DNA of 64,000 bases. Origin: Pseudooceanicola marinus. Its GTDB lineage: Bacteria; Pseudomonadota; Alphaproteobacteria; Rhodobacterales; Rhodobacteraceae. Where the stretch lies: the NCBI RefSeq assembly GCF_020177265.1, contig NZ_JAIVMC010000007.1, positions 124,001 through 188,000 on the forward strand, given 5' to 3'. The position numbers and the translations under genes were made by a program. Within the stretch, counting starts at the first letter, position 1. Every line of letters begins with the position of its first letter. A model generated the notes under the pieces. It searched no databases, had not been told where the DNA came from, and saw nothing but the letters and a program-made list of their open reading frames with translations. Of the stretch, positions 8,911 through 40,162 are shown piece by piece.

Positions 8911-10169
8911 GCGTCGAACTGACGACCCTGAAAAACGGGTTTCGCGTTGTCACTGAAACCATGCCTGGCCTGCAATCGGCCTCCATCGGGATCTGGGTCA
9001 GCGCCGGGGGGCGGCATGAGCGGCCCGAACAGAACGGCATCGCCCATTTCCTGGAACACATGGCCTTCAAGGGCACGAAGACGCGCAGCGCGCTCGACAT
9101 CGCCGAGGTGATCGAGGACGTGGGGGGCTTCATCAACGCCTATACCTCGCGCGAGGTGACGGCCTATTACGCCCGCGTGCTGGAGGCCGACGTGCCGCTG
9201 GCGCTGGACGTGATCGCCGACATCCTGCGCGCCTCGGTCTACGATCCGCATGAGATCGAGATGGAGCGCGGCGTGATCCTCAGCGAGATCGGTCAGGCGC
9301 TGGATACGCCCGATGACGTGATCTTCGACTGGCTGCAGGAGCAGGCCTACCCGGAACAGCCCCTGGGCCGCACAATCCTGGGCCCCGAAGAGCGCGTGCG
9401 CGCCTTCAGCCGGGACGACCTGCAGGCCTTCGTGGCCGAACACTACGGGCCGGGCCAGATGATCCTGGCCGCCGCCGGTTCGGTGGATCACGCGGCGCTG
9501 GTGAAACAGGCCGAGGCGCTCTTCGGCGACATGCCGGCCCACGGACAGCCTGACATTGTGCCCGCCCGTTTCGTCGGCGGTGACCTGCGCCGGGTGAAGA
9601 CGCTGGAACAGGCCCATGTGACCTTCGGATTCGAGGGGCCGGATTACCGGTCCGAGCAGGCCTATGCGGCACAGATCTACGCCGCGGCGCTTGGCGGCGG
9701 CATGTCCTCGCGGCTGTTCCAGGAACTGCGCGAGAAGCGGGGCCTGTGCTACACCGTCTTCAGCCAGGCCGGGGCCTATGCCGACAGCGGGATGATGACC
9801 GTCTATGCGGGCACCTCCGCCGACAAGGTGGGCGAGCTTTCGGAGCTGATCCTGGACGAGATGAAGCGCGCCGCCGACGGGCTGAGCGTGGCCGAGACCG
9901 ACCGCGCCCGTGCCCAGATGAAGGCCGGGCTGCTGATGGGGCTGGAAGGCGCCAGCAACCGCGCCGAACGCCTGGCGCGGATGGTCGAGATCTGGGGCCG
10001 GGTGCCCGCGCTGGAGGAAGTCGTGGCGCGCATCGACGCGGTGACGGCCGAGGACCTGCGGGCCCATGCCGAGGTCATGGCCGCGCGCGCCCCCATGGCG
10101 CTGGCGCTTTACGGTCCCGTGGAGGGGGTGCCCGCCTTCGAGCGGCTGCAGGCCCGCCGCGCTGCCTGA
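8907..10169 (+). CDS. M16 family zinc peptidase (processing-peptidase-like)
   Basis: 420 residues. The inverted zinc motif HFLEH (H47, E50, H51) and the downstream glutamate region (ERGVILSEIGQALDTPDD) mark an active beta-type M16B peptidase, relatives of the mitochondrial processing peptidase. GGGMSSRLFQELREKRGLCY is the conserved substrate-contact segment. No signal peptide, so it is probably cytoplasmic. The start is an unusual TTG at 8907, supported by a strong AAAGGAGG 5 bases upstream and by the N-terminal VELTTLKNGFRVVTE similarity; the thrC stop overlaps it. Substrates are unknown. Confidence 0.9.
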   Translation: MSVELTTLKNGFRVVTETMPGLQSASIGIWVSAGGRHERPEQNGIAHFLEHMAFKGTKTRSALDIAEVIEDVGGFINAYTSREVTAYYARVLEADVPLALDVIADILRASVYDPHEIEMERGVILSEIGQALDTPDDVIFDWLQEQAYPEQPLGRTILGPEERVRAFSRDDLQAFVAEHYGPGQMILAAAGSVDHAALVKQAEALFGDMPAHGQPDIVPARFVGGDLRRVKTLEQAHVTFGFEGPDYRSEQAYAAQIYAAALGGGMSSRLFQELREKRGLCYTVFSQAGAYADSGMMTVYAGTSADKVGELSELILDEMKRAADGLSVAETDRARAQMKAGLLMGLEGASNRAERLARMVEIWGRVPALEEVVARIDAVTAEDLRAHAEVMAARAPMALALYGPVEGVPAFERLQARRAA

Positions 10170-10753
10170 TGTTGCGGTCCCGGCGGAAAGTACGGATCGA
10201 GACGGGGCGCATGGTGCTGCGCCTTCCGGTTCATGCCGATTTCCATGCCTGGACCGATCTGCGCGCCGAAAGCCGCGACTTCCTGACCCCCTGGGAGCCG
10301 GGCTGGTCCCGTGATCACCTGACCCGGCGCAGTTTCACCAACCGTGTCTACTGGGCGCAACGCTCGGTCACCGGGGGCACGGCCCTGCCGCTGTTCCTGG
10401 AACGGAGCGGCGACGGGGCCCTGCTGGGGGCGATCACGCTCGACAACATCCGCCGCGGCCCCAGCATGTCGGGCGTCCTGGGCTACTGGATCGGCGAGCG
10501 GTTCAAGCGCCAGGGCTACATGCGCGAGGCGATCGAGGGGGTGGTGCAGCACGCCTTCCACCGCATGGACCTCAGCCGGATCGAGGCTGCCTGCCTGCCC
10601 GAGAACACCCCTTCGCGCCGTCTGCTGGAAAGCTGCGGCTTCAAGTACGAGGGCGTCGCGCAGAGCTACCTGCAGATCAACGGACGCTGGCGCACCCATG
10701 TCCTCTATGCCTCGCTTCGGCTGGACCGGCGCGGGCGGACGGAGGCGGGGTAG
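10169..10753 (+). CDS. GNAT acetyltransferase, RimJ/RimL-like
   Basis: 194 residues. Acetyl-CoA-dependent N-acetyltransferase of the ribosomal-protein-alanine type: RIETGRMVLRLPVHADF at the start, YWIGERFKRQGYMREAI (acetyl-CoA pyrophosphate loop, about 109-125) and ENTPSRRLLESCGF near the C-terminus are family hallmarks. The ATG overlaps the stop codon of the peptidase gene by one base. True substrate unknown; RimJ-like proteins acetylate ribosomal proteins or other N-termini. Confidence 0.88.
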   Translation: MLRSRRKVRIETGRMVLRLPVHADFHAWTDLRAESRDFLTPWEPGWSRDHLTRRSFTNRVYWAQRSVTGGTALPLFLERSGDGALLGAITLDNIRRGPSMSGVLGYWIGERFKRQGYMREAIEGVVQHAFHRMDLSRIEAACLPENTPSRRLLESCGFKYEGVAQSYLQINGRWRTHVLYASLRLDRRGRTEAG

Positions 10754-10766
10754 ACGCGGCTCGCTC

Positions 10767-10831
10767 GGGCAGGGGCGTTGCCCCGCCGCCGGAGGGCGGC
10801 AGAGAGGACGGAAGGGGGCAGAGCCCCCTTG
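10767..10831. repeat. GC-rich palindromic repeat, degenerate copy
   Basis: GGGCAGGGGCGTTGCCCC at 10767-10784, then GGGGGCAGAGCCCCC at 10815-10829, located between the convergent ends of the acetyltransferase and flavin reductase genes. It resembles the exact repeats at 17567 and 63831. It may also serve as a two-way transcription stop. Confidence 0.55.
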
Positions 10832-10844
10832 CCCAAGGGTCCCC

Positions 10845-11450
10845 TCAGCTCTGACCGGGGCGGTTCAGGGGGAAGAGATCGGTGATGGCGGAATAGTCGC
10901 GGTAGCCCAGACGTGACAGGGTTTGCACCTTGGCCACGTCGAACATCCCCTCCGTCAGGGCGGCCTCGTCGATATGCACGCCCACGACCTCGCCGATGAC
11001 CATGACGTTGGGGGCCCCGGCCAGGTCGACGATCTGCGTCATCCGGCATTCCAGCGCCGCGGGCGCCGCGGCAACCCGCGGACAGTCGATCATCTGGCAC
11101 TGTGCCTTCTCCAGACCGGCCACCGCGAACTCGTCCTCGCCGGCGGCCAGCGCGGCGGAACTGGCGTTCATCGCGTCGCGCAGGGCGTAGGACACGATAT
11201 TGCAGCAGAAGACCCCGGTCTCCCGGATCTGCGCCACGCTGTCCTTGGTGCCGTCACGGTCGGGCTTGGCGCTGCTGGAGGCGAACATGACCTGCGGCGG
11301 GCTGTCCGCCACGGCGTTAAAGAAGGAATAGGGCGCCAGGTTGTCCCCCAGGTGCCCCCGGGTCGAGATCCACCCGATGGGGCGCGGCGCGATCAGCGCC
11401 TTGAACGGGTTGTGCGGCAGACCGTGGCCGTCTTTCGGTTCGTAGAACAT
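10845..11450 (-). CDS. Flavin reductase / flavin-binding domain protein
   Basis: 201 residues. FMN-binding split-barrel protein of the flavin reductase-like family: IAPRPIGWISTRG and NLAPYSFFNAVADSPPQVMF are the typical FMN-contact segments, and KDSVAQIRETGVFCCNIVS follows the family pattern. Such proteins reduce free FMN with NAD(P)H for two-component monooxygenases or act as uncharacterised flavoproteins; no partner monooxygenase is adjacent. The gene is divergent from an acetyltransferase with only 70 bases between starts. Confidence 0.85.
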   Translation of the reverse strand: MFYEPKDGHGLPHNPFKALIAPRPIGWISTRGHLGDNLAPYSFFNAVADSPPQVMFASSSAKPDRDGTKDSVAQIRETGVFCCNIVSYALRDAMNASSAALAAGEDEFAVAGLEKAQCQMIDCPRVAAAPAALECRMTQIVDLAGAPNVMVIGEVVGVHIDEAALTEGMFDVAKVQTLSRLGYRDYSAITDLFPLNRPGQS

Positions 11451-11520
11451 GCGTCTCTCCCATGGGTTTGCCGAGCAGGTAATCCCGTGCTAGGGGCGTT
11501 TCCAACCCAAAAGACTGATC

Positions 11521-12021
11521 ATGAGCGCAGAGACGATGTTCACTCTCACCCCCGAAACCGCGGATGACTGGTGGGAGGTCGAAGCGCTGTATGACCTCTG
11601 CTTCGCCCCGGGGCGGACCGCGCTCAGCTCCTACCGGCTGCGCGAGGACGTGGCGCCCGTGGCGGGCCTGTGCCAGGTGGCGCGGGACCGGGACGGCAGC
11701 GTCGGCGGGGCGATCCGCTATTGGCCGGTGCAGGCGGCGGGCCTGCCCGCCCTCCTGCTGGGCCCCGTGGCCGTTCACCCGACCCACCAGGGCGAGGGGC
11801 TGGGTGGCCTGCTGATCAACGCCTCGCTGCATGCCGCCCGCGACAACGGCTGGGACCGGGTTCTGCTGGTCGGTGACGCCCCCTACTACAGCCGGTTCGG
11901 ATTTTCGAAACTGCCGGACATCCGCATGCCCCCGCCCACCAACCCCGACCGGGTGCTGGGGCTGGCGCTGACGTCCGGTGCCTGGGACGGGCTGACGGGC
12001 GAGGTGACACGCGCCGCGTGA
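11521..12021 (+). CDS. GNAT family N-acetyltransferase (YhbS-like)
   Basis: 166 residues. The acetyl-CoA binding region is LGPVAVHPTHQGEGLGGLLI (about residues 80-99), with VLLVGDAPYYSRFGF after it, a pattern typical of the predicted acetyltransferases of COG3153. The substrate is unknown. It stands alone between divergent flavin reductase and the EcsC-family gene. Confidence 0.85.
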   Translation: MSAETMFTLTPETADDWWEVEALYDLCFAPGRTALSSYRLREDVAPVAGLCQVARDRDGSVGGAIRYWPVQAAGLPALLLGPVAVHPTHQGEGLGGLLINASLHAARDNGWDRVLLVGDAPYYSRFGFSKLPDIRMPPPTNPDRVLGLALTSGAWDGLTGEVTRAA

Positions 12022-34106: not shown

Positions 34107-34132
34107 ACCGCGCCTCAGGCGAACCGCAACGG

Positions 34133-34164
34133 ACCCCGGCAGGCCACCTGCCGGGGTTCTTTTT
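34133..34164 (+). terminator. Rho-independent terminator of choXWV
   Basis: 9-bp stem CCCCGGCAG / CTGCCGGGG, 5-base loop, then TTCTTTTT. It separates the choline importer from the sulfotransferase cluster. Confidence 0.92.
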
Positions 34165-34223: not shown

Positions 34224-35459
34224 GTGAAGCACGAAAGGACAGGGCGCCCGGCAGGGCACCAGGGGCCGCCTGCGGAAGCGGGGCAGGGGGCCGCGCGGCC
34301 ACGTCAGCCGGCGCGGCCGCGGGATTTCGGCTATTCCCCCCTGATGCCACGGCTCTGGCACGGGATGACCTGGGGCGACTGGCGGGCCCTGTCGCGTGGG
34401 CAATGGGCGCGCTGCCGCGGCGATCTGCGGCTTGGTCTCTATGCCTCGATCACGGCGCTCAGCCTGGGCAACTCGCTGATGCAGGGGCTGGGTCAGATGA
34501 TCCACGGGCGCGCTCTGGCCCGGACCGAGATCCGCCCCGATCCGGTCTTCATCCTGGGCTACTGGCGGTCCGGCACAACCTGGCTGCACCAGTTGCTGAG
34601 CTGTGATCCGCGCTTCTGTTCCCCGACCTCGTTGCAGGTCTTCATGCCCAAGAGCTTCCTGATGCTGCGCCACGTGATGCGCCCGCTGGCGCCCCTGTGG
34701 CTGCCCGGGCGCCGCCCGATGGACAACGTGGCTCTGGAGGCCGACAGTTCGGAGGAGGACGAGGTGGCATTGCTGGTCGCAGGCGCGCCGTCGGTTATGC
34801 GGGGCATGGCCTTCGACGATCCGGAGGCCCCCGCGATGACCGATGACATCGCCGATCTGCCCGAGGCCCTGCGCGCCGACTGGCATCGCCGCTGGCGCGC
34901 CTTCCTGACGGCGGTGCAGTACCTGGCGCCGGATCGGCAGCTGCTGCTGAAATCTCCGGGTCACACGATGCGCCTGGCGGAGGTGCTGCGCGCCTTTCCG
35001 CAGGCGCGTTTCATTCATATTCTCCGCGATCCCTACGAGATTGCCCAGTCCAACATCCTGACCGCCGAGAGCATGACTGCCACCCAGACCCTGCGCCGCA
35101 CCATGCCCGCCCGCGCCGACCTCGAAGACGGCGTATTCCGCGCCTTCAGGGCCTTTCATGAGGCCTTCGAGCGCGACCGTGCCCTGATCCCCGAGGGGCA
35201 CTACACCTGCCTCCGCTACGAGGATCTGCGCCGCGATCCGAAAGCTGTCATCAAGGGCGTTTACGACGCAATCGGGCTGGGCGAGGCCGATGCACTGGAG
35301 CCGGCCCTTGACCGAATGCTCTCGGCACGTAAGGGCTATAGGGTAAATGAATTTTCCATGGACCCGGCGCTGGCACGGCGGGTCGAACGGGAATGGGCGG
35401 CCTATTTTCGGCGCTACGGCTACTCCCGGCGATCAGGGTGGATAACCGAAGACGAATGA
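34224..35459 (+). CDS. PAPS-dependent sulfotransferase (Sulfotransfer_3 type)
   Basis: 411 residues. Transfers sulfate from PAPS to an acceptor. The 5'-phosphosulfate loop GYWRSGTTWLHQLL (about 112-125), a LLLKSPGHTMRL segment (about 240-251) and the 3'-phosphate motif FIHILRDPYEIAQSN (about 263-277) are intact. The first 35 residues are Gly/Pro/Arg/Ala-rich and probably disordered; a hydrophobic stretch (LGLYASITALSLGNSLMQGL, about 70-89) may touch the membrane. GTG 34224 is supported by AGGGAGGA upstream. The stop overlaps the RND exporter start (ATGA), so the product is probably what is exported. The acceptor is unknown; a lipid is inferred from context. Confidence 0.88.
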   Translation: MKHERTGRPAGHQGPPAEAGQGAARPRQPARPRDFGYSPLMPRLWHGMTWGDWRALSRGQWARCRGDLRLGLYASITALSLGNSLMQGLGQMIHGRALARTEIRPDPVFILGYWRSGTTWLHQLLSCDPRFCSPTSLQVFMPKSFLMLRHVMRPLAPLWLPGRRPMDNVALEADSSEEDEVALLVAGAPSVMRGMAFDDPEAPAMTDDIADLPEALRADWHRRWRAFLTAVQYLAPDRQLLLKSPGHTMRLAEVLRAFPQARFIHILRDPYEIAQSNILTAESMTATQTLRRTMPARADLEDGVFRAFRAFHEAFERDRALIPEGHYTCLRYEDLRRDPKAVIKGVYDAIGLGEADALEPALDRMLSARKGYRVNEFSMDPALARRVEREWAAYFRRYGYSRRSGWITEDE

Positions 35460-37738
35460 GCACCTCGGACCGGATTGCAGAGTTTATCCTGCGCCATCTC
35501 ATCAAGCTGACCCTGCTGGTCCTGGCCCTCGTGCTGGGGCTGGGGGTCGGGGTGTCGCGGCTTTCCTTTTCGGCCGACAACACGTCGTTCTTCGGCAAGG
35601 ACAACCAGGAAAGCCGCGACCTGGCCGAACTGTCGCAGCACTATGCCAGCGCCAGTGGCTTTCTCATCATGATCGTCCCGCCGGAGGGCGAGATGTTCGC
35701 CCGCCCGACGCTGGAGGCGCTGCGCGACATGACGGCGGATGCCTGGATGGCGCCCTATGCGCTGCGGGTGGATTCGGCGGCGAACTTCCCCCACAGCCGG
35801 GCCGAGGGCGACGACATCCTGGTCGAGCCGCTGCTGGACGAATGGGCCGAAATCACGCCGGAGGTCGCCACGCGCTTCCGCGAGGTGGCCAGCACCAGCC
35901 CCGAGCTGCGCAACCGGCTGGTGGCCGAGGACCTGACCGCCTACGGCATCATGCTGAACGTGGTGCTGGGCGGGGACTTCGAGGCCCGGCGGGCCGAGCT
36001 TCTGGCCTACCTGGATGAGATGCGCGCCGAATGGGCCGAGCGCTATCCCGGTTTCGAGGTGCATGTGACCGGCGACGTCATCGGCGGGCTGACCCTGGCG
36101 AAGGCGGCGCGTGACGACATCATGACCCTGGTGCCCGTCGCCTTCGTGCTGGTTCTGGGTCTCTTCCTCTACTTCCTGCGCTCGCCCGTGGCGGTCATGG
36201 CCTCGGCGGTGGTGGTGCTGTCGGGCACCCTGGCCACCTTCGGCTTCGCCGGCTTCCTCGGGATCGAGCTGACGGCGGGGACGGCGATCAGCCCGATGGC
36301 GGTGATGGTGCTGACGGCCGCCTCCTGCATCCACATCATCCTCAGCTGGATCCGCGAACTGGACCACTTGGACGGCCCCGGCGCCGTGCGTCACGCGCTG
36401 GCGGGGAACCTGGCGCCGGTGCTGGTGACCACGGTGACCACCGCCATCGGCTTCCTCGGCCTGAACTTCGCCGAGGCGCCGCCGCTTCAGGACATGGGCA
36501 ACATCGTGGGCTTCGGCCTGCTGATCGGCATGCTGGCCACCTTCACCGTCCTGCCCCTGGGCCTGCGGATGAGCCGGGCCGCGGGCGGCGACAGCCTGCC
36601 GCTGACCGTCGGCATGATGCGGCGTCTGGCGGAGCTGGCAATCCGCTATCGCCGCGGCTGGCTGGCGGGCTTCGCGGCGCTGGTGGTCCTGTCGGTCTTC
36701 GGTATCTTCCGCATCGGCTATGACGACAGCCTGGTGCGCTATTTCGATCAGCGCTACGAGTTCCGCCGCGAATCCGACGAGATCCGGGCGCATCTGACCG
36801 GGCTGTCGAACCTGCAGTTCTCCTTCACCGCGCCGGAAGGTGGCTCGGTCTTCGAGCCCGCCTTCCTGCGCGACATCGACCGATTTACCGCCTGGATCGA
36901 GGCCCAGGACAACGTCGTCGGCGTCACCAGCATGACCCAGATCGTCAAGCGCATGAACATGAGCATGAACGGCGACGATCCCGCCTTCGCGCAGATCGCC
37001 GACAGCCGCGAGGCCAATGCCCAGCTGATGATGTTCTACGAGCTGTCCCTGCCCGTGGGGCTGGACCTGAACACGATGATCGACGTCGACCGGCTGCACA
37101 CGCGGGTGGTGGTGCTGCTGCGTTCGGACCATTCGCACCAGATCCGTGACCTCGGCGACCGCGCCCAGGCCTGGATGGCCGCAAACACGCCCGCCACGAC
37201 GGCCCGGCCGGCCGGGATCTCCTACGGCTTTTCGACCGTGTCGGAACGCAACAACTCGCAAATGCTGGCGGGGCTGCTGGTGGTCCTGGTGCTGGTGTCG
37301 ATGATCATGATGGCGACGCTGCGCAGCCTGAAGATGGGGCTGATCAGCCTGGCGCCCAACCTGATGCCGGCAATCATCGCCTTCGGGATCTGGGGCATGA
37401 CGTTCCGCGACGTGAACCTCGGCTCCACCGTGGTCACGACCATGACATTCGGCATCGTCGTGGATGACACGGTGCATTTCCTGATGCACTATCTTGACGG
37501 GCGGCGCCGGGGTCTGGCGCCGCGTCCGGCGTTGCACGACACCTTCCGCGTCGTCGGCTCCGCCATCATCGTCACCTCGATCTGCCTGGCGGTCGGTTTC
37601 CTGACCATGGCCACGTCGGGCTTTGCCATCAACCAGCACCTGGGGGCGCTGACGGCCATCGTGATCGTGTTCGCGCTGCTGGCCGACCTGCTGTTCCTGC
37701 CCGCGCTGCTGCTGACCCTCGACAGGACCAAGGACTGA
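35456..37738 (+). CDS. RND/MMPL superfamily exporter
   Basis: 760 residues, two repeated halves. Each half has one leading membrane helix, a large periplasmic domain (about 40-220 and 430-590) and a five-helix bundle. The acidic FGIVVDDTVHFLMHYLDG in the second half is the proton-relay signature of the COG1033 'predicted exporter' group, to which hopanoid exporter HpnN and MmpL-like lipid exporters are related. Smaller than drug-efflux RND pumps and without an adaptor gene, which fits a hydrophobe/lipid carrier. ATG 35456 overlaps the sulfotransferase stop; the stop overlaps the next start (TGATG). Confidence 0.88.
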   Translation: MSTSDRIAEFILRHLIKLTLLVLALVLGLGVGVSRLSFSADNTSFFGKDNQESRDLAELSQHYASASGFLIMIVPPEGEMFARPTLEALRDMTADAWMAPYALRVDSAANFPHSRAEGDDILVEPLLDEWAEITPEVATRFREVASTSPELRNRLVAEDLTAYGIMLNVVLGGDFEARRAELLAYLDEMRAEWAERYPGFEVHVTGDVIGGLTLAKAARDDIMTLVPVAFVLVLGLFLYFLRSPVAVMASAVVVLSGTLATFGFAGFLGIELTAGTAISPMAVMVLTAASCIHIILSWIRELDHLDGPGAVRHALAGNLAPVLVTTVTTAIGFLGLNFAEAPPLQDMGNIVGFGLLIGMLATFTVLPLGLRMSRAAGGDSLPLTVGMMRRLAELAIRYRRGWLAGFAALVVLSVFGIFRIGYDDSLVRYFDQRYEFRRESDEIRAHLTGLSNLQFSFTAPEGGSVFEPAFLRDIDRFTAWIEAQDNVVGVTSMTQIVKRMNMSMNGDDPAFAQIADSREANAQLMMFYELSLPVGLDLNTMIDVDRLHTRVVVLLRSDHSHQIRDLGDRAQAWMAANTPATTARPAGISYGFSTVSERNNSQMLAGLLVVLVLVSMIMMATLRSLKMGLISLAPNLMPAIIAFGIWGMTFRDVNLGSTVVTTMTFGIVVDDTVHFLMHYLDGRRRGLAPRPALHDTFRVVGSAIIVTSICLAVGFLTMATSGFAINQHLGALTAIVIVFALLADLLFLPALLLTLDRTKD

Positions 37739-38535
37739 TGCCCAGACATTTCCTCTCCCACATTCTCGCGGCGCTGGTGCTGCTGACCCTGCTTCCGGGA
37801 CCGGCGCTGGCGGAAACCGCGCAGGAGAAGGGGCGCCGCCTGGCCGCCCAGGTGGGGGTGGAGCCGGGGTTTCGCGACCAGTCGGTCTCGGGCGAGATGA
37901 TCCTGACCACCGCCAGCGGCCAGACCAGCACCCGCCGCTTCGAGGCCCGCTCGGTGGAGACCGGCCCTGAGGAAGCGCGTTCGGTGCTGATCTTCGACTG
38001 GCCGGGCGACATTCGCGGCACCGCCCTGCTGACCCATTCCCACGGCGGCGGGCGTGACGACGACCAGTGGCTCTACCTGCCGGCGGTGTCAAAGGTGCGC
38101 CGCATCTCGTCGTCGGGGCGGTCCGGTGCCTTCGTCGGCAGCGAGTTCGCCTATGAGGACATGGTCGATCAGGACGTGGAGAAATATACCTATGCCTTCG
38201 TCTCGACCGGGGCCTGCCCCGGGGGCGGGCGCTGTGACATCGTCGACCGCTTTCCGACCGGCCGCTCCGCCTACAGCGCACAGCGACTGTGGATCGACGC
38301 CGGGCGCCACCTGATCCGTCAGGTCCAGTACTTCGACCGCCGCAAGGCCCACGTGAAGACCATGGTCGTCTCGGGCTATCGCCAGTACCAGGGCCGCTAC
38401 TGGCGCGCCTCGCAGATGGTGATGACCAACCATCTGACGGGCAAGGGCACGACGCTGACCTGGAGGGACTTCCGGTTCAACCAGGGCCTGAACCCTGCCG
38501 ATCTGACCGTCAACGCCCTGCGCCGGGGGCTCTAG
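37738..38535 (+). CDS. LolA-like outer-membrane lipoprotein-sorting protein
   Basis: 265 residues with a signal peptide (1-25, ending ALA-E). The mature part follows the LolA/LppX-like half-barrel family that accompanies RND exporters: SVSGEMILTTASGQTSTRRFE, WLYLPAVSKVRRISSSGRSGAFVGSEFAYEDM (read over about 112-143) and QRLWIDAGRHLIRQVQYFDR. Such proteins bind lipids in a hydrophobic cavity and carry them over the periplasm. There is no lipobox, so it is soluble. Translationally coupled to the exporter gene by a one-base overlap. Confidence 0.85.
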   Translation: MPRHFLSHILAALVLLTLLPGPALAETAQEKGRRLAAQVGVEPGFRDQSVSGEMILTTASGQTSTRRFEARSVETGPEEARSVLIFDWPGDIRGTALLTHSHGGGRDDDQWLYLPAVSKVRRISSSGRSGAFVGSEFAYEDMVDQDVEKYTYAFVSTGACPGGGRCDIVDRFPTGRSAYSAQRLWIDAGRHLIRQVQYFDRRKAHVKTMVVSGYRQYQGRYWRASQMVMTNHLTGKGTTLTWRDFRFNQGLNPADLTVNALRRGL

Positions 38536-38776
38536 GTCCCCTCCGGACGGCTCCTGCGGCGGGACGGGCGACCTTCGCTTCGCACCGTTGCGCCCATGAA
38601 CCGCTCTGAAAGGCGGCCCTTGCGCAGGCTGGGCCCTGCTTTGTGTGGCTTTGCTGCATCTGAGCCCCTGTCACGACGCCCCCGCGCGTCGCTGTACCGG
38701 CCGGGCCGGCCGTCCCTGTGCCTATGATCGGTGAACATAGTGATTCTTTTCATTTCCCGATTTTACGGAGTGTCAG

Positions 38777-40162
38777 ATGACGGTCTCTCTCCCTCTCCGC
38801 ATGGCAGCCCCCGGCGCTGCGGCGCTTTTGACCTTTGCCGCCGGTTCGGCCCTGGCACAGGAGGCCTCCTTCAACGGTAGCCTCAGCGCCGGGCTGCGCT
38901 ACTACACTGAAGACGGGCTGTATGCCGGCCAGTCCTCCTCCGGGGTGGAGGCCTTCGGTGAGATGACCCTGGGCGGAGAGATCGCCCTGGGCGCCGGTCG
39001 CCTGACCTTCGACCTGGACGGGATCCTAGACAGCACCGGCACGCTGGACCGGGGCAATATCGCCGAGCTGCATTATTCGCAAAGCTTCGGGGACTGGAGC
39101 CTGCTGGCCGGTTTCCACACCGAGAACTGGGGCGTGGCCGAAAGCCGGTCGGTGATGAACGTGATGAACCCGGTCGATGGCACCGACCCGCTGGTCCAGG
39201 ACACGCTGCTCGGCACGCCGATGGTGAACCTGAACTACCACAGCGGTATCGGCACCTTCAGCGCCTACGCGCTTCTGGGCTTCATCGAGCCGACCTTCCC
39301 CAAGGGCGATGAGGGCCGTTTCCGCTCGCTGCTGCAATGGGACCCGGACCGGGCCTACTACGAGGAGGACCGGGACGCGCGGAACGTCGACCTGGCGCTG
39401 CGGTACGCGGGCTACTTCGCGCTCGGCAATGGCTCTCTCGACGTGCAGGCGACCTATTTCAACGGCACCAGCCGTGAGGCGCTGGCCATGCCCGGCTGCA
39501 TCAATGCCCTGGGTCCGGTCAACGAGGCCATGTGCGATGCGATCAACGATGCCATCGCCGATGGGATCGCCCAGGGCGACATGCCGGTCGACGCGGATGA
39601 CTTCTGGGACACGATGGACGACATCATGACCGATGACCTGGCCAGCGCCCTGTCCGGGCTGCCGCCGGTCGCGGGGCTGATCCCTTACTACCGCAAGGTC
39701 GAACAGGTCGGGCTGTCGGCCGTCTATGCCCTCAACGACCTGCAACTGCGGGCCGAGGCCTCCTGGCACGACGTCGGGACGGAAGAGTATCTTTCGGCCG
39801 TGGTCGGCGGCGACTACACCTTCAACGGCCTGGGCGGCGGAGACGGTGACCTGACCGTGGTGATGGAATACCTCTATGATGATCGCGGCGCGCTTCAGCC
39901 GGTGACGGTCTTCGAAGATGATCTATTCCTCGGCATGAACTACCGCCTGAACAACGCCAGGGACACCGAGGTGAAGCTGGGCGTCTTCCACGACATCAGC
40001 AGCGAGGCGCGTCTCTACACGCTGCGCCTGTCCTCGCGCCTGACCGATTCCAGCAGTTTCGAGGTCAATGCCAGCCATGCGACGACCACGGGCTGGAACG
40101 ATCCGCTGGCCTTCATCAAGGACGACAGCTTCGTCGAGGTGAAGCTGACCACCTACTTCTGA
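38777..40162 (+). CDS. Putative outer-membrane beta-barrel protein
   Basis: 461 residues; signal peptide 1-27 (ALA-Q). The rest is a run of alternating strands rich in aromatic girdle residues (SLSAGLRYYTEDGLYA, LTFDLDGILDS, WSLLAGFHTENWG, LRAEASWHDVG) and ends in KLTTYF, the terminal aromatic of BamA-assembled barrels. An acidic helical insert (about 234-300) carries C241 and C253, a possible disulfide. I recognise no named family. It follows the LolA-like gene after 241 bases that may hold its own promoter (AT-rich stretch 38738-38770, GGAG before the ATG). A role as the outer-membrane end of the export route is inferred. Confidence 0.72.
   Translation: MTVSLPLRMAAPGAAALLTFAAGSALAQEASFNGSLSAGLRYYTEDGLYAGQSSSGVEAFGEMTLGGEIALGAGRLTFDLDGILDSTGTLDRGNIAELHYSQSFGDWSLLAGFHTENWGVAESRSVMNVMNPVDGTDPLVQDTLLGTPMVNLNYHSGIGTFSAYALLGFIEPTFPKGDEGRFRSLLQWDPDRAYYEEDRDARNVDLALRYAGYFALGNGSLDVQATYFNGTSREALAMPGCINALGPVNEAMCDAINDAIADGIAQGDMPVDADDFWDTMDDIMTDDLASALSGLPPVAGLIPYYRKVEQVGLSAVYALNDLQLRAEASWHDVGTEEYLSAVVGGDYTFNGLGGGDGDLTVVMEYLYDDRGALQPVTVFEDDLFLGMNYRLNNARDTEVKLGVFHDISSEARLYTLRLSSRLTDSSSFEVNASHATTTGWNDPLAFIKDDSFVEVKLTTYF

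Follow-up and report, generated by a model that had tools for sequence, protein, structure and literature searches.

What does a sulfotransferase (ST) act upon when its gene overlaps that of an exporter? This question is raised by a 64,000-nucleotide stretch of a Pseudooceanicola genome (assembly GCF_020177265.1, contig NZ_JAIVMC010000007.1, positions 124,001 to 188,000), here called the window, in which an ST of the type using 3'-phosphoadenosine-5'-phosphosulfate (PAPS), an RND/MMPL transporter, a LolA-like carrier and a candidate outer-membrane beta-barrel are encoded one after another. Comparison with related genomes revealed that the ST of this exporter subclade belongs to a larger set of six genes, which additionally comprises a polyketide synthase (PKS) and a condensation-domain protein. 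Based on gene content and order, we consider it probable (roughly 60%) that the four genes represent the sulfation-and-export half of a six-gene pathway toward a sulfated polyketide lipid, retained in a species without a lipid synthase of its own.

The six-gene set in relatives of the window

All four genes are located on the forward strand. The ST gene (34224..35459, GTG start) overlaps that of the HAE3-like RND/MMPL transporter (35456..37738) in an ATGA at 35456-35459, and the latter overlaps the gene of the LolA-like carrier (37738..38535) in a TGATG at 37736-37740. A longer open reading frame listed for the transporter begins at 35393; since most relatives align from around the ATG at 35456, this position is most likely the start of a gene ending at 37738. 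The barrel gene (38777..40162) is separated from the LolA-like gene by 241 bases, rendering its membership in the operon less certain. The four genes, their common direction and both overlaps, as described in the earlier note, were confirmed, and the RND gene was found in 5 of the 22 Pseudooceanicola genomes, all five carrying ST, RND, LolA-like protein and barrel together in the same order. As this order recurs in two other genera as well (L022 and L204), the arrangement is not due to chance. The ST itself passes the cut-off of PF13469 (Sulfotransfer_3) with 117.2 bits vs 27 (E 1.7e-33), the mycobacterial Stf0 family being a different Pfam entry.

Six genes in one order, namely PKS, condensation-domain (PapA-like) protein, ST, RND, LolA-like protein and barrel, were detected in five relatives. 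Three of them belong to Pseudooceanicola (G597, G583, and G593), with the PKS and condensation protein genes directly preceding the ST gene, and the others to two further genera (G064 and G756). At the locus of G064 (L022), all six genes share one strand, the PKS shows the highly reducing type I architecture KS-AT-DH-ER-KR-ACP and the condensation protein is stand-alone. The Pseudooceanicola PKSs are 57-59% identical to the one of G064 over most of their length, the G593 copy being split between two contigs. At the locus of G756 (L204), the PKS is 60% identical to that of G064 and the condensation protein 37% to that of G583, while identities to the window amount to 39% (ST), 50% (RND), 57% (LolA) and 36% (barrel). 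The HHxxxD motif is kept in all five aligned condensation sequences, i.e., four of the five stand-alone proteins and a domain fused to the PKS of another locus (L088, G460), where a PKS with C-terminal condensation domain precedes RND, LolA and barrel genes. The 400 C-terminal residues of the cluster PKSs gave no Pfam match in the proteins scanned (L022, L136, and L135), and a profile comparison with the condensation proteins yielded a probability of 76% (E 2.3e-5). This is suggestive, although not firm, of a degenerate condensation domain at the C-terminus of these PKSs (L022, L136, L204, L133, and L135), comparable to the fused domain of L088. Further PKS-bearing arrangements were observed on two Sulfitobacter plasmids, which carry the PKS gene directly before RND (PKS, RND, LolA, galE, barrel, no ST), and in a Pseudomonas locus (L043: PKS, LolA, barrel, RND).

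In a midpoint-rooted RND tree, the window falls into a group of 10 rows (support 86/86; 9 of the rows 100/100), eight of which have a PKS or ST gene adjacent, compared with 1 of 47 elsewhere; the two members with neither are L023 and L024. Seven cluster STs form a single clade (100/99) among 24 STs. The earlier note had proposed a route of four gene products leading from sulfation via RND and carrier to the outer membrane. The co-inheritance within the subclade and the PKS-bearing loci fit this route, but the ancestral unit comprises six genes, and the lipid-making half had been missed. Sulfation and export of an amphiphile are consistent with this picture because the relatives reside in loci with a lipid-type PKS.

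Within the six-gene relatives, an iterative highly reducing type I PKS would generate an acyl chain that is completely or largely reduced, and the PapA-like acyltransferase would esterify it onto a putative alcohol or sugar acceptor. The ST would then move sulfate from PAPS to a hydroxyl group of the acyl product or of the acceptor. Subsequently, the RND transporter would extract the amphiphile from the inner membrane, the LolA-like protein would carry it across the periplasm, and the barrel would insert it in, or pass it through, the outer membrane. We infer each of these chemical and transport steps, as well as what the cargo is. In the case of the window species and P. marinus LMG 23705 (G588; 98% identical to the window at the RND transporter), the retained four genes most likely serve to sulfate an amphiphile that owes its acyl part to another enzyme, and to export it, because the PKS and condensation genes are missing at the site and no orthologue was found elsewhere in either genome.

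The choline gene site, the missing synthase and the state of the four genes

The Pseudooceanicola sets occupy one site, with betC, betI and choXWV upstream and genes of a Peripla_BP_6 protein and a methyl-accepting chemotaxis protein (MCP) downstream; this applies to the window as well, and in G593 and G583 other genes lie between the set and Peripla_BP_6/MCP. The gene following choV is the PKS in G597, G583, and G593 and the ST in the window and P. marinus. A PKS orthologue (at least 50% identity) was detected in 3 of the 22 Pseudooceanicola genomes, and in neither the window genome (G000; 4.55 Mb, 28 contigs) nor P. marinus, and both of these genomes had 0 matches to the condensation domain PF00668. 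Since the six-gene order is common to two other genera, the simplest account would be a loss of the PKS and condensation genes in the window lineage. The 117 bases separating choV from ST showed no scar of the lost genes, the best condensation match lying on the wrong strand and containing a stop. Alignment of this gap with the regions preceding the PKS gave scores of 33 for G583 (shuffle mean 24.4, maximum 42) and 40 for G597 (mean 35.4, maximum 54), with 100 shuffles as control, and of 34 for G593, without shuffles.

The position of the set directly behind genes for a choline sulfatase (betC), BetI and a choline transporter suggests an ST producing choline-O-sulfate or another small osmolyte. 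This idea, already disfavored, is highly improbable. A terminator-like hairpin on the forward strand at 34131..34159 (13 pairs, 10 of them G-C, loop of 3, followed by TTTTTCTTGG) lies between choV and ST, suggesting that the four genes form a transcription unit apart from choXWV. Terminator-like sites were not significantly enriched by count alone (3 between 34000 and 40500 vs 2.0, sd 1.6, in shuffles), and this hairpin has the longest stem among the three. Moreover, choV was matched (E <= 1e-140) in 15 of the 22 Pseudooceanicola genomes, and 10 of these 15 lack all four genes in flanks of ~1.5 kb. Conversely, betC, betI, choX and choW found no match in the 17-20 kb read around the sets of G064 and G756; the 28% match to choV at L204 is as expected of any ABC ATPase. 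As choV often occurs without the set and these two sets without choline genes, the latter are neighbors by position and not partners, and a choline partnership was rejected as a positional accident.

With the original synthase absent, a second large reducing PKS encoded on another contig of the window genome (G000:C3:182083-189735, L127; a frame of 2,550 residues) was considered. Its identity to the lost PKS is only 35% and its neighbors, BioF-like, Capsule_synth and glycosyltransferase genes, are of capsule type, the cluster presumably resembling the rkp-1 capsule region of rhizobia; on both grounds it was rejected as the missing PKS. It is, however, a candidate acyl source for the four genes, and it gives rise to another explanation, according to which this contig 3 cluster makes a surface polysaccharide, the ST acts on that polymer or on its lipid anchor, and the RND module exports the sulfated product. 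The second synthase occurs in 5/5 module-bearing and 1/17 other Pseudooceanicola genomes (56-93% identical to the window copy), an association with a Fisher p of 0.0002 that ignores relatedness; the module-bearing species may form one clade. Considering also that the synthase is located on a different contig and that no ST relative turned up beside it, with no search aimed at one, we regard this explanation as decidedly unlikely.

Whether the four genes still work is a question of its own, as without a lipid synthase they could be a useless remnant on its way out. The ratios of nonsynonymous to synonymous substitution rates (dN/dS) between the window and P. marinus amount to 0.155 for ST, 0.065 for RND and 0.066 each for LolA and barrel, thus within the range of eight neighboring genes (0.043-0.177), although the two are close species and a function lost only very recently would still give such values. 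All four reading frames are open in the window. In addition, the ST motif RSGTTW, which we take to be the phosphosulfate loop, and the residues R268/S276, presumably the 3'-phosphate site, are intact, with GTT, R and S being invariant in 24/24 homologues. PAPS supply is encoded in the window genome by cysD and a fused cysNC with adenosine-5'-phosphosulfate (APS) kinase. Taken from these sequence features, the four genes are likely functional in the window species.

A number of observations nevertheless weigh against a working sulfolipid pathway half, some of which favor a remnant. Besides the recent-loss caveat, dN/dS values against the six-gene genome G583 are 0.421 for ST, 0.286 for RND, 0.289 for LolA and 0.386 for barrel compared with 0.147-0.316 for betC, betI and choXWV (an IclR value was left out owing to a wrong pairing), so that ST and barrel evolve faster than the choline genes; the ST value is the highest of the four genes in both comparisons. 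P. marinus, 99% complete and keeping the four genes in the same layout, gave no APS kinase match while 20 of the 22 genus genomes did, and its ST may thus be without PAPS. None of the residue-level features examined in the ST points to lipid specificity, and its structure model was unusable (pLDDT, predicted local distance difference test, 34.6). The PKS of the window genome nearest to the lost one is the distant copy in the capsule-type cluster. Furthermore, 48 of 59 RND stretches lack both ST and PKS. These 59 comprise the window and 58 loci, with L040 and L132 apparently being one P. marinus contig and therefore counted twice; 7 of them (6 genomes) contained an ST, 8 a PKS and 5 a condensation domain, some of the PKS and condensation query sequences originating from these same loci. 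L023 (G133), whose RND (57%) is the second closest outside the genus to the group of G064, lies on a 5.6 kb contig that carries no ST and no PKS, which weighs against a universal link of RND to ST/PKS. In view of the open frames, the dN/dS values within the neighbor range and the intact ST motifs, we still regard a remnant as unlikely.

Exporter type, distribution and known systems

The RND transporter passes the MMPL cut-off (PF03176) in two stretches (100.7 bits vs 20.5; E 1e-28). It falls below the cut-off of HAE3 (TIGR00921; 154.8 vs 351.9 bits), though this is its best NCBIfam match, as well as below that of the HpnN model (TIGR03480; 97 vs 751.85 bits), and is far under that of the NCBIfam MMPL actII model (103.1 vs 874.7 bits). 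In its C-terminal half, D670 is kept in 57/57 relatives. The LolA-like protein, with an apparent signal peptide (by eye), passes the LolA_like cut-off (PF17131; 172.6 bits vs 30, E 8.8e-51) and has a marginal DUF1329 match (24.8 vs cut-off 23.1); its nearest solved structures are 3bk5 (E 3.5e-55), 9tp6 and 4z48. The barrel candidate, for which a signal peptide and a C-terminal phenylalanine are apparent (both by eye), gave no Pfam or NCBIfam match at E <= 0.01, no DUF1302 match and no PDB sequence match at E <= 1. Its strand-rich model is of low confidence (pLDDT 53). Among the 50 Foldseek rows listed for it, all with template modeling (TM) scores <= 0.40, 46 named outer-membrane proteins (OmpU, OprP etc.), three bore the title of artificial Zn metalloproteins and the remaining one (5nup) gave no protein name. 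The model supports an outer-membrane barrel and nothing finer.

The distribution of exporter and ST was examined at three taxonomic levels, all counts including the window's own genome. In a family sample of about one genome per genus, RND was matched (E <= 1e-50) in 13 and ST (E <= 1e-20) in 7 of 198 genomes; in a sample of the class with 385 genomes representing 277 genera, RND (E <= 1e-90) was matched in 59 and ST (E <= 1e-35) in 5. A six-row ST profile matched 7/398 genomes of a phylum sample at E <= 1e-45. Among the six of these beyond the window genome, the full set was present in G756 only, and the seven stretches read from the other five contained no RND-LolA-barrel trio; one profile match (L205) has a PKS-type gene (27-28%) before ST and another (L208) weak RND matches (E ~1e-24). 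Neighborhoods were read for part of the matches; left out were the third Sulfitobacter plasmid match (H9), Photobacterium (H12) and three of the four Azospirillum ST matches (H1, H3, and H4), and L044, a short RND match and one of 5 loci in the contig scan, was dropped from later counts. LolA-like and barrel relatives were found in 31 of 52 RND stretches, in 26 of them in the order RND, LolA, barrel; several RND stretches are short contig ends, where a missing neighbor is no proof of absence.

The trio of RND, LolA-like protein and barrel is thus a widespread exporter type, to which the ST is a special addition. The generality of the ST link had been overrated in the earlier note, given that ST stands beside 7 of the 59 RND stretches and the trio mostly occurs without it. 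Across the entire exporter family, the ST is missing beside most RND relatives, an outcome that the earlier note had named as refuting its proposal; within the window's RND subclade this does not apply, and ST, RND, LolA-like protein and barrel are co-inherited.

The occurrence of the trio without ST or PKS fits with a different function, namely the expulsion of a hydrophobic toxic or catabolic compound, with the ST acting on an unrelated substrate. The model would be AmeABCD of Castellaniella defragrans, which is tied to monoterpene tolerance (PMC6394551) and described there as an HAE3 RND transporter with DUF1329/LolA-superfamily and DUF1302 proteins. Both systems share an HAE3-type RND, a periplasmic protein of the LolA superfamily and a protein of the outer membrane. 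In contrast, the barrel described here lacks DUF1302, DUF1329 is only marginal in the LolA-like protein, no AmeC-like fourth gene lies inside the trio and no monoterpene link was seen. Since in the subclade the ST gene overlaps RND and has been inherited along with a lipid-type PKS, and the PKS gene directly precedes RND on the two Sulfitobacter plasmids, export of a toxic compound appears quite unlikely for the window.

Returning to a sulfated polyketide lipid, the closest parallel is sulfolipid-1 (SL-1) of mycobacteria. According to PMC9989471, Stf0 sulfates trehalose, PapA2/PapA1 acylate it, Pks2 makes the chains, and both synthesis and transport require MmpL8 and Sap; coupling of synthesis and export is further illustrated by MmpL7, which binds the synthase PpsE physically (PMC1238737). 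The six-gene relatives resemble SL-1 in combining a reducing type I PKS, a condensation-domain protein, a PAPS-type ST and an RND/MMPL transporter. They differ in that the ST belongs to PF13469, LolA-like protein and barrel replace the mycobacterial partners, the RND is far below the MMPL actII cut-off and there is no evidence of trehalose. A Pks2-type PKS and a PapA-type acyltransferase are absent from the window genome and present by type in the five relatives. The cluster is best read, by analogy, as working like the SL-1 system without being a member of it.

Other RND-containing systems are less similar. Aryl polyene clusters (ApeL/ApeM/ApeN) likewise combine a biosynthetic locus with a LolA-like chaperone and an RND transporter, whereas according to PMC8253772 they have a LolB-like protein and no barrel, separate fatty-acid-type enzymes instead of a single type I PKS, and no ST in the gene table. 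The hopanoid transporter HpnN shares the HAE3-like RND, but the RND of the window misses its cut-off, and HpnN reportedly needs no partner proteins (PMC6394551). The trio works like AmeABCD, HAE3, HpnN and actII MMPL transporters and is not filed with them because it fails their tests. A literature search, which covered open-licence literature, mostly titles and abstract beginnings, and is no proof of novelty, turned up no description of a whole-set cluster. The earlier note, which knew of no described system with this set of parts in Alphaproteobacteria, agrees with that literature as to the whole set; the trio type itself has already been described with AmeABCD (PMC6394551). The cluster is built from known kinds of parts, and the whole set was not found described.

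As a tentative and somewhat doubtful extension, a complete surface-sulfolipid pathway, from iterative reducing PKS to an RND-LolA-barrel route through the entire Gram-negative envelope, may have been assembled in the family of Pseudooceanicola independently of mycobacteria, with the window lineage rewiring the sulfation-export half to another acyl source after the loss of its own synthase. If so, sulfolipid machinery comparable to that of mycobacteria would exist in a further phylum, hinting at a class of sulfated surface lipids in marine bacteria that is so far undescribed. Marine Gram-negatives of this group would then offer a test case for how the making, sulfation and export of a polyketide lipid are coupled, and a way to test the lipid hand-over from RND to LolA-like carrier and outer-membrane barrel. 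With their four-gene and six-gene species, they represent a natural experiment that asks if the export half is bound to one cargo.

Other exporter and sulfotransferase neighborhoods

Several loci differ from the above arrangements. RND and LolA-like protein are fused in single frames of 1,081-1,109 residues followed by the barrel in L026, L030, and L032, suggesting that the two domains act together. In L024 (G184, 9858-11822), no barrel was detected, and behind the RND and LolA-like pair comes an AsmA-like protein, whose 64.5 bits fall well short of the NCBIfam cut-off. A gene for an MPAB/Lcp-type oxygenase lies near RND in seven loci (L025, L078, L079, L080, L084, L093, and L027; Pfam tested in L084 and L078), in all of these except L027 just upstream and on the same strand, which hints at a different class of cargo.

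Among the ST relatives, those of L114, L116, and L117 (G398, G288, and G507; at 7-9 kb) are divergent beside a hopanoid-type RND, which scored 759 bits in L116 (above the HpnN cut-off of 751.85) and 671 bits in L117 (below it). Downstream of ST are genes for an HpnA-like epimerase (249 bits in L117, below its cut-off) and of squalene/phytoene-synthase type (L114 and L117), and an uncharacterized protein of ~400 residues lies in between. These loci possibly specify sulfated hopanoids. In L033, L034, and L035 (G026, G006, and G161), the ST relative abuts a cytochrome P450-type gene (family tested in L034), a pair that we take to resemble mycobacterial stf3-cyp128. On an Azospirillum oryzae plasmid (L139, 4763-10891), an ST relative closes a run of genes encoding two CrtI-type desaturases, one acyltransferase and one glycosyltransferase, the product of which is perhaps a sulfated glycosyl carotenoid. 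Finally, on the 24 kb plasmid p1 of Pseudoalteromonas rhizosphaerae (L138), RND and LolA-like genes are located beside gamma-mobile-trio recombination genes.

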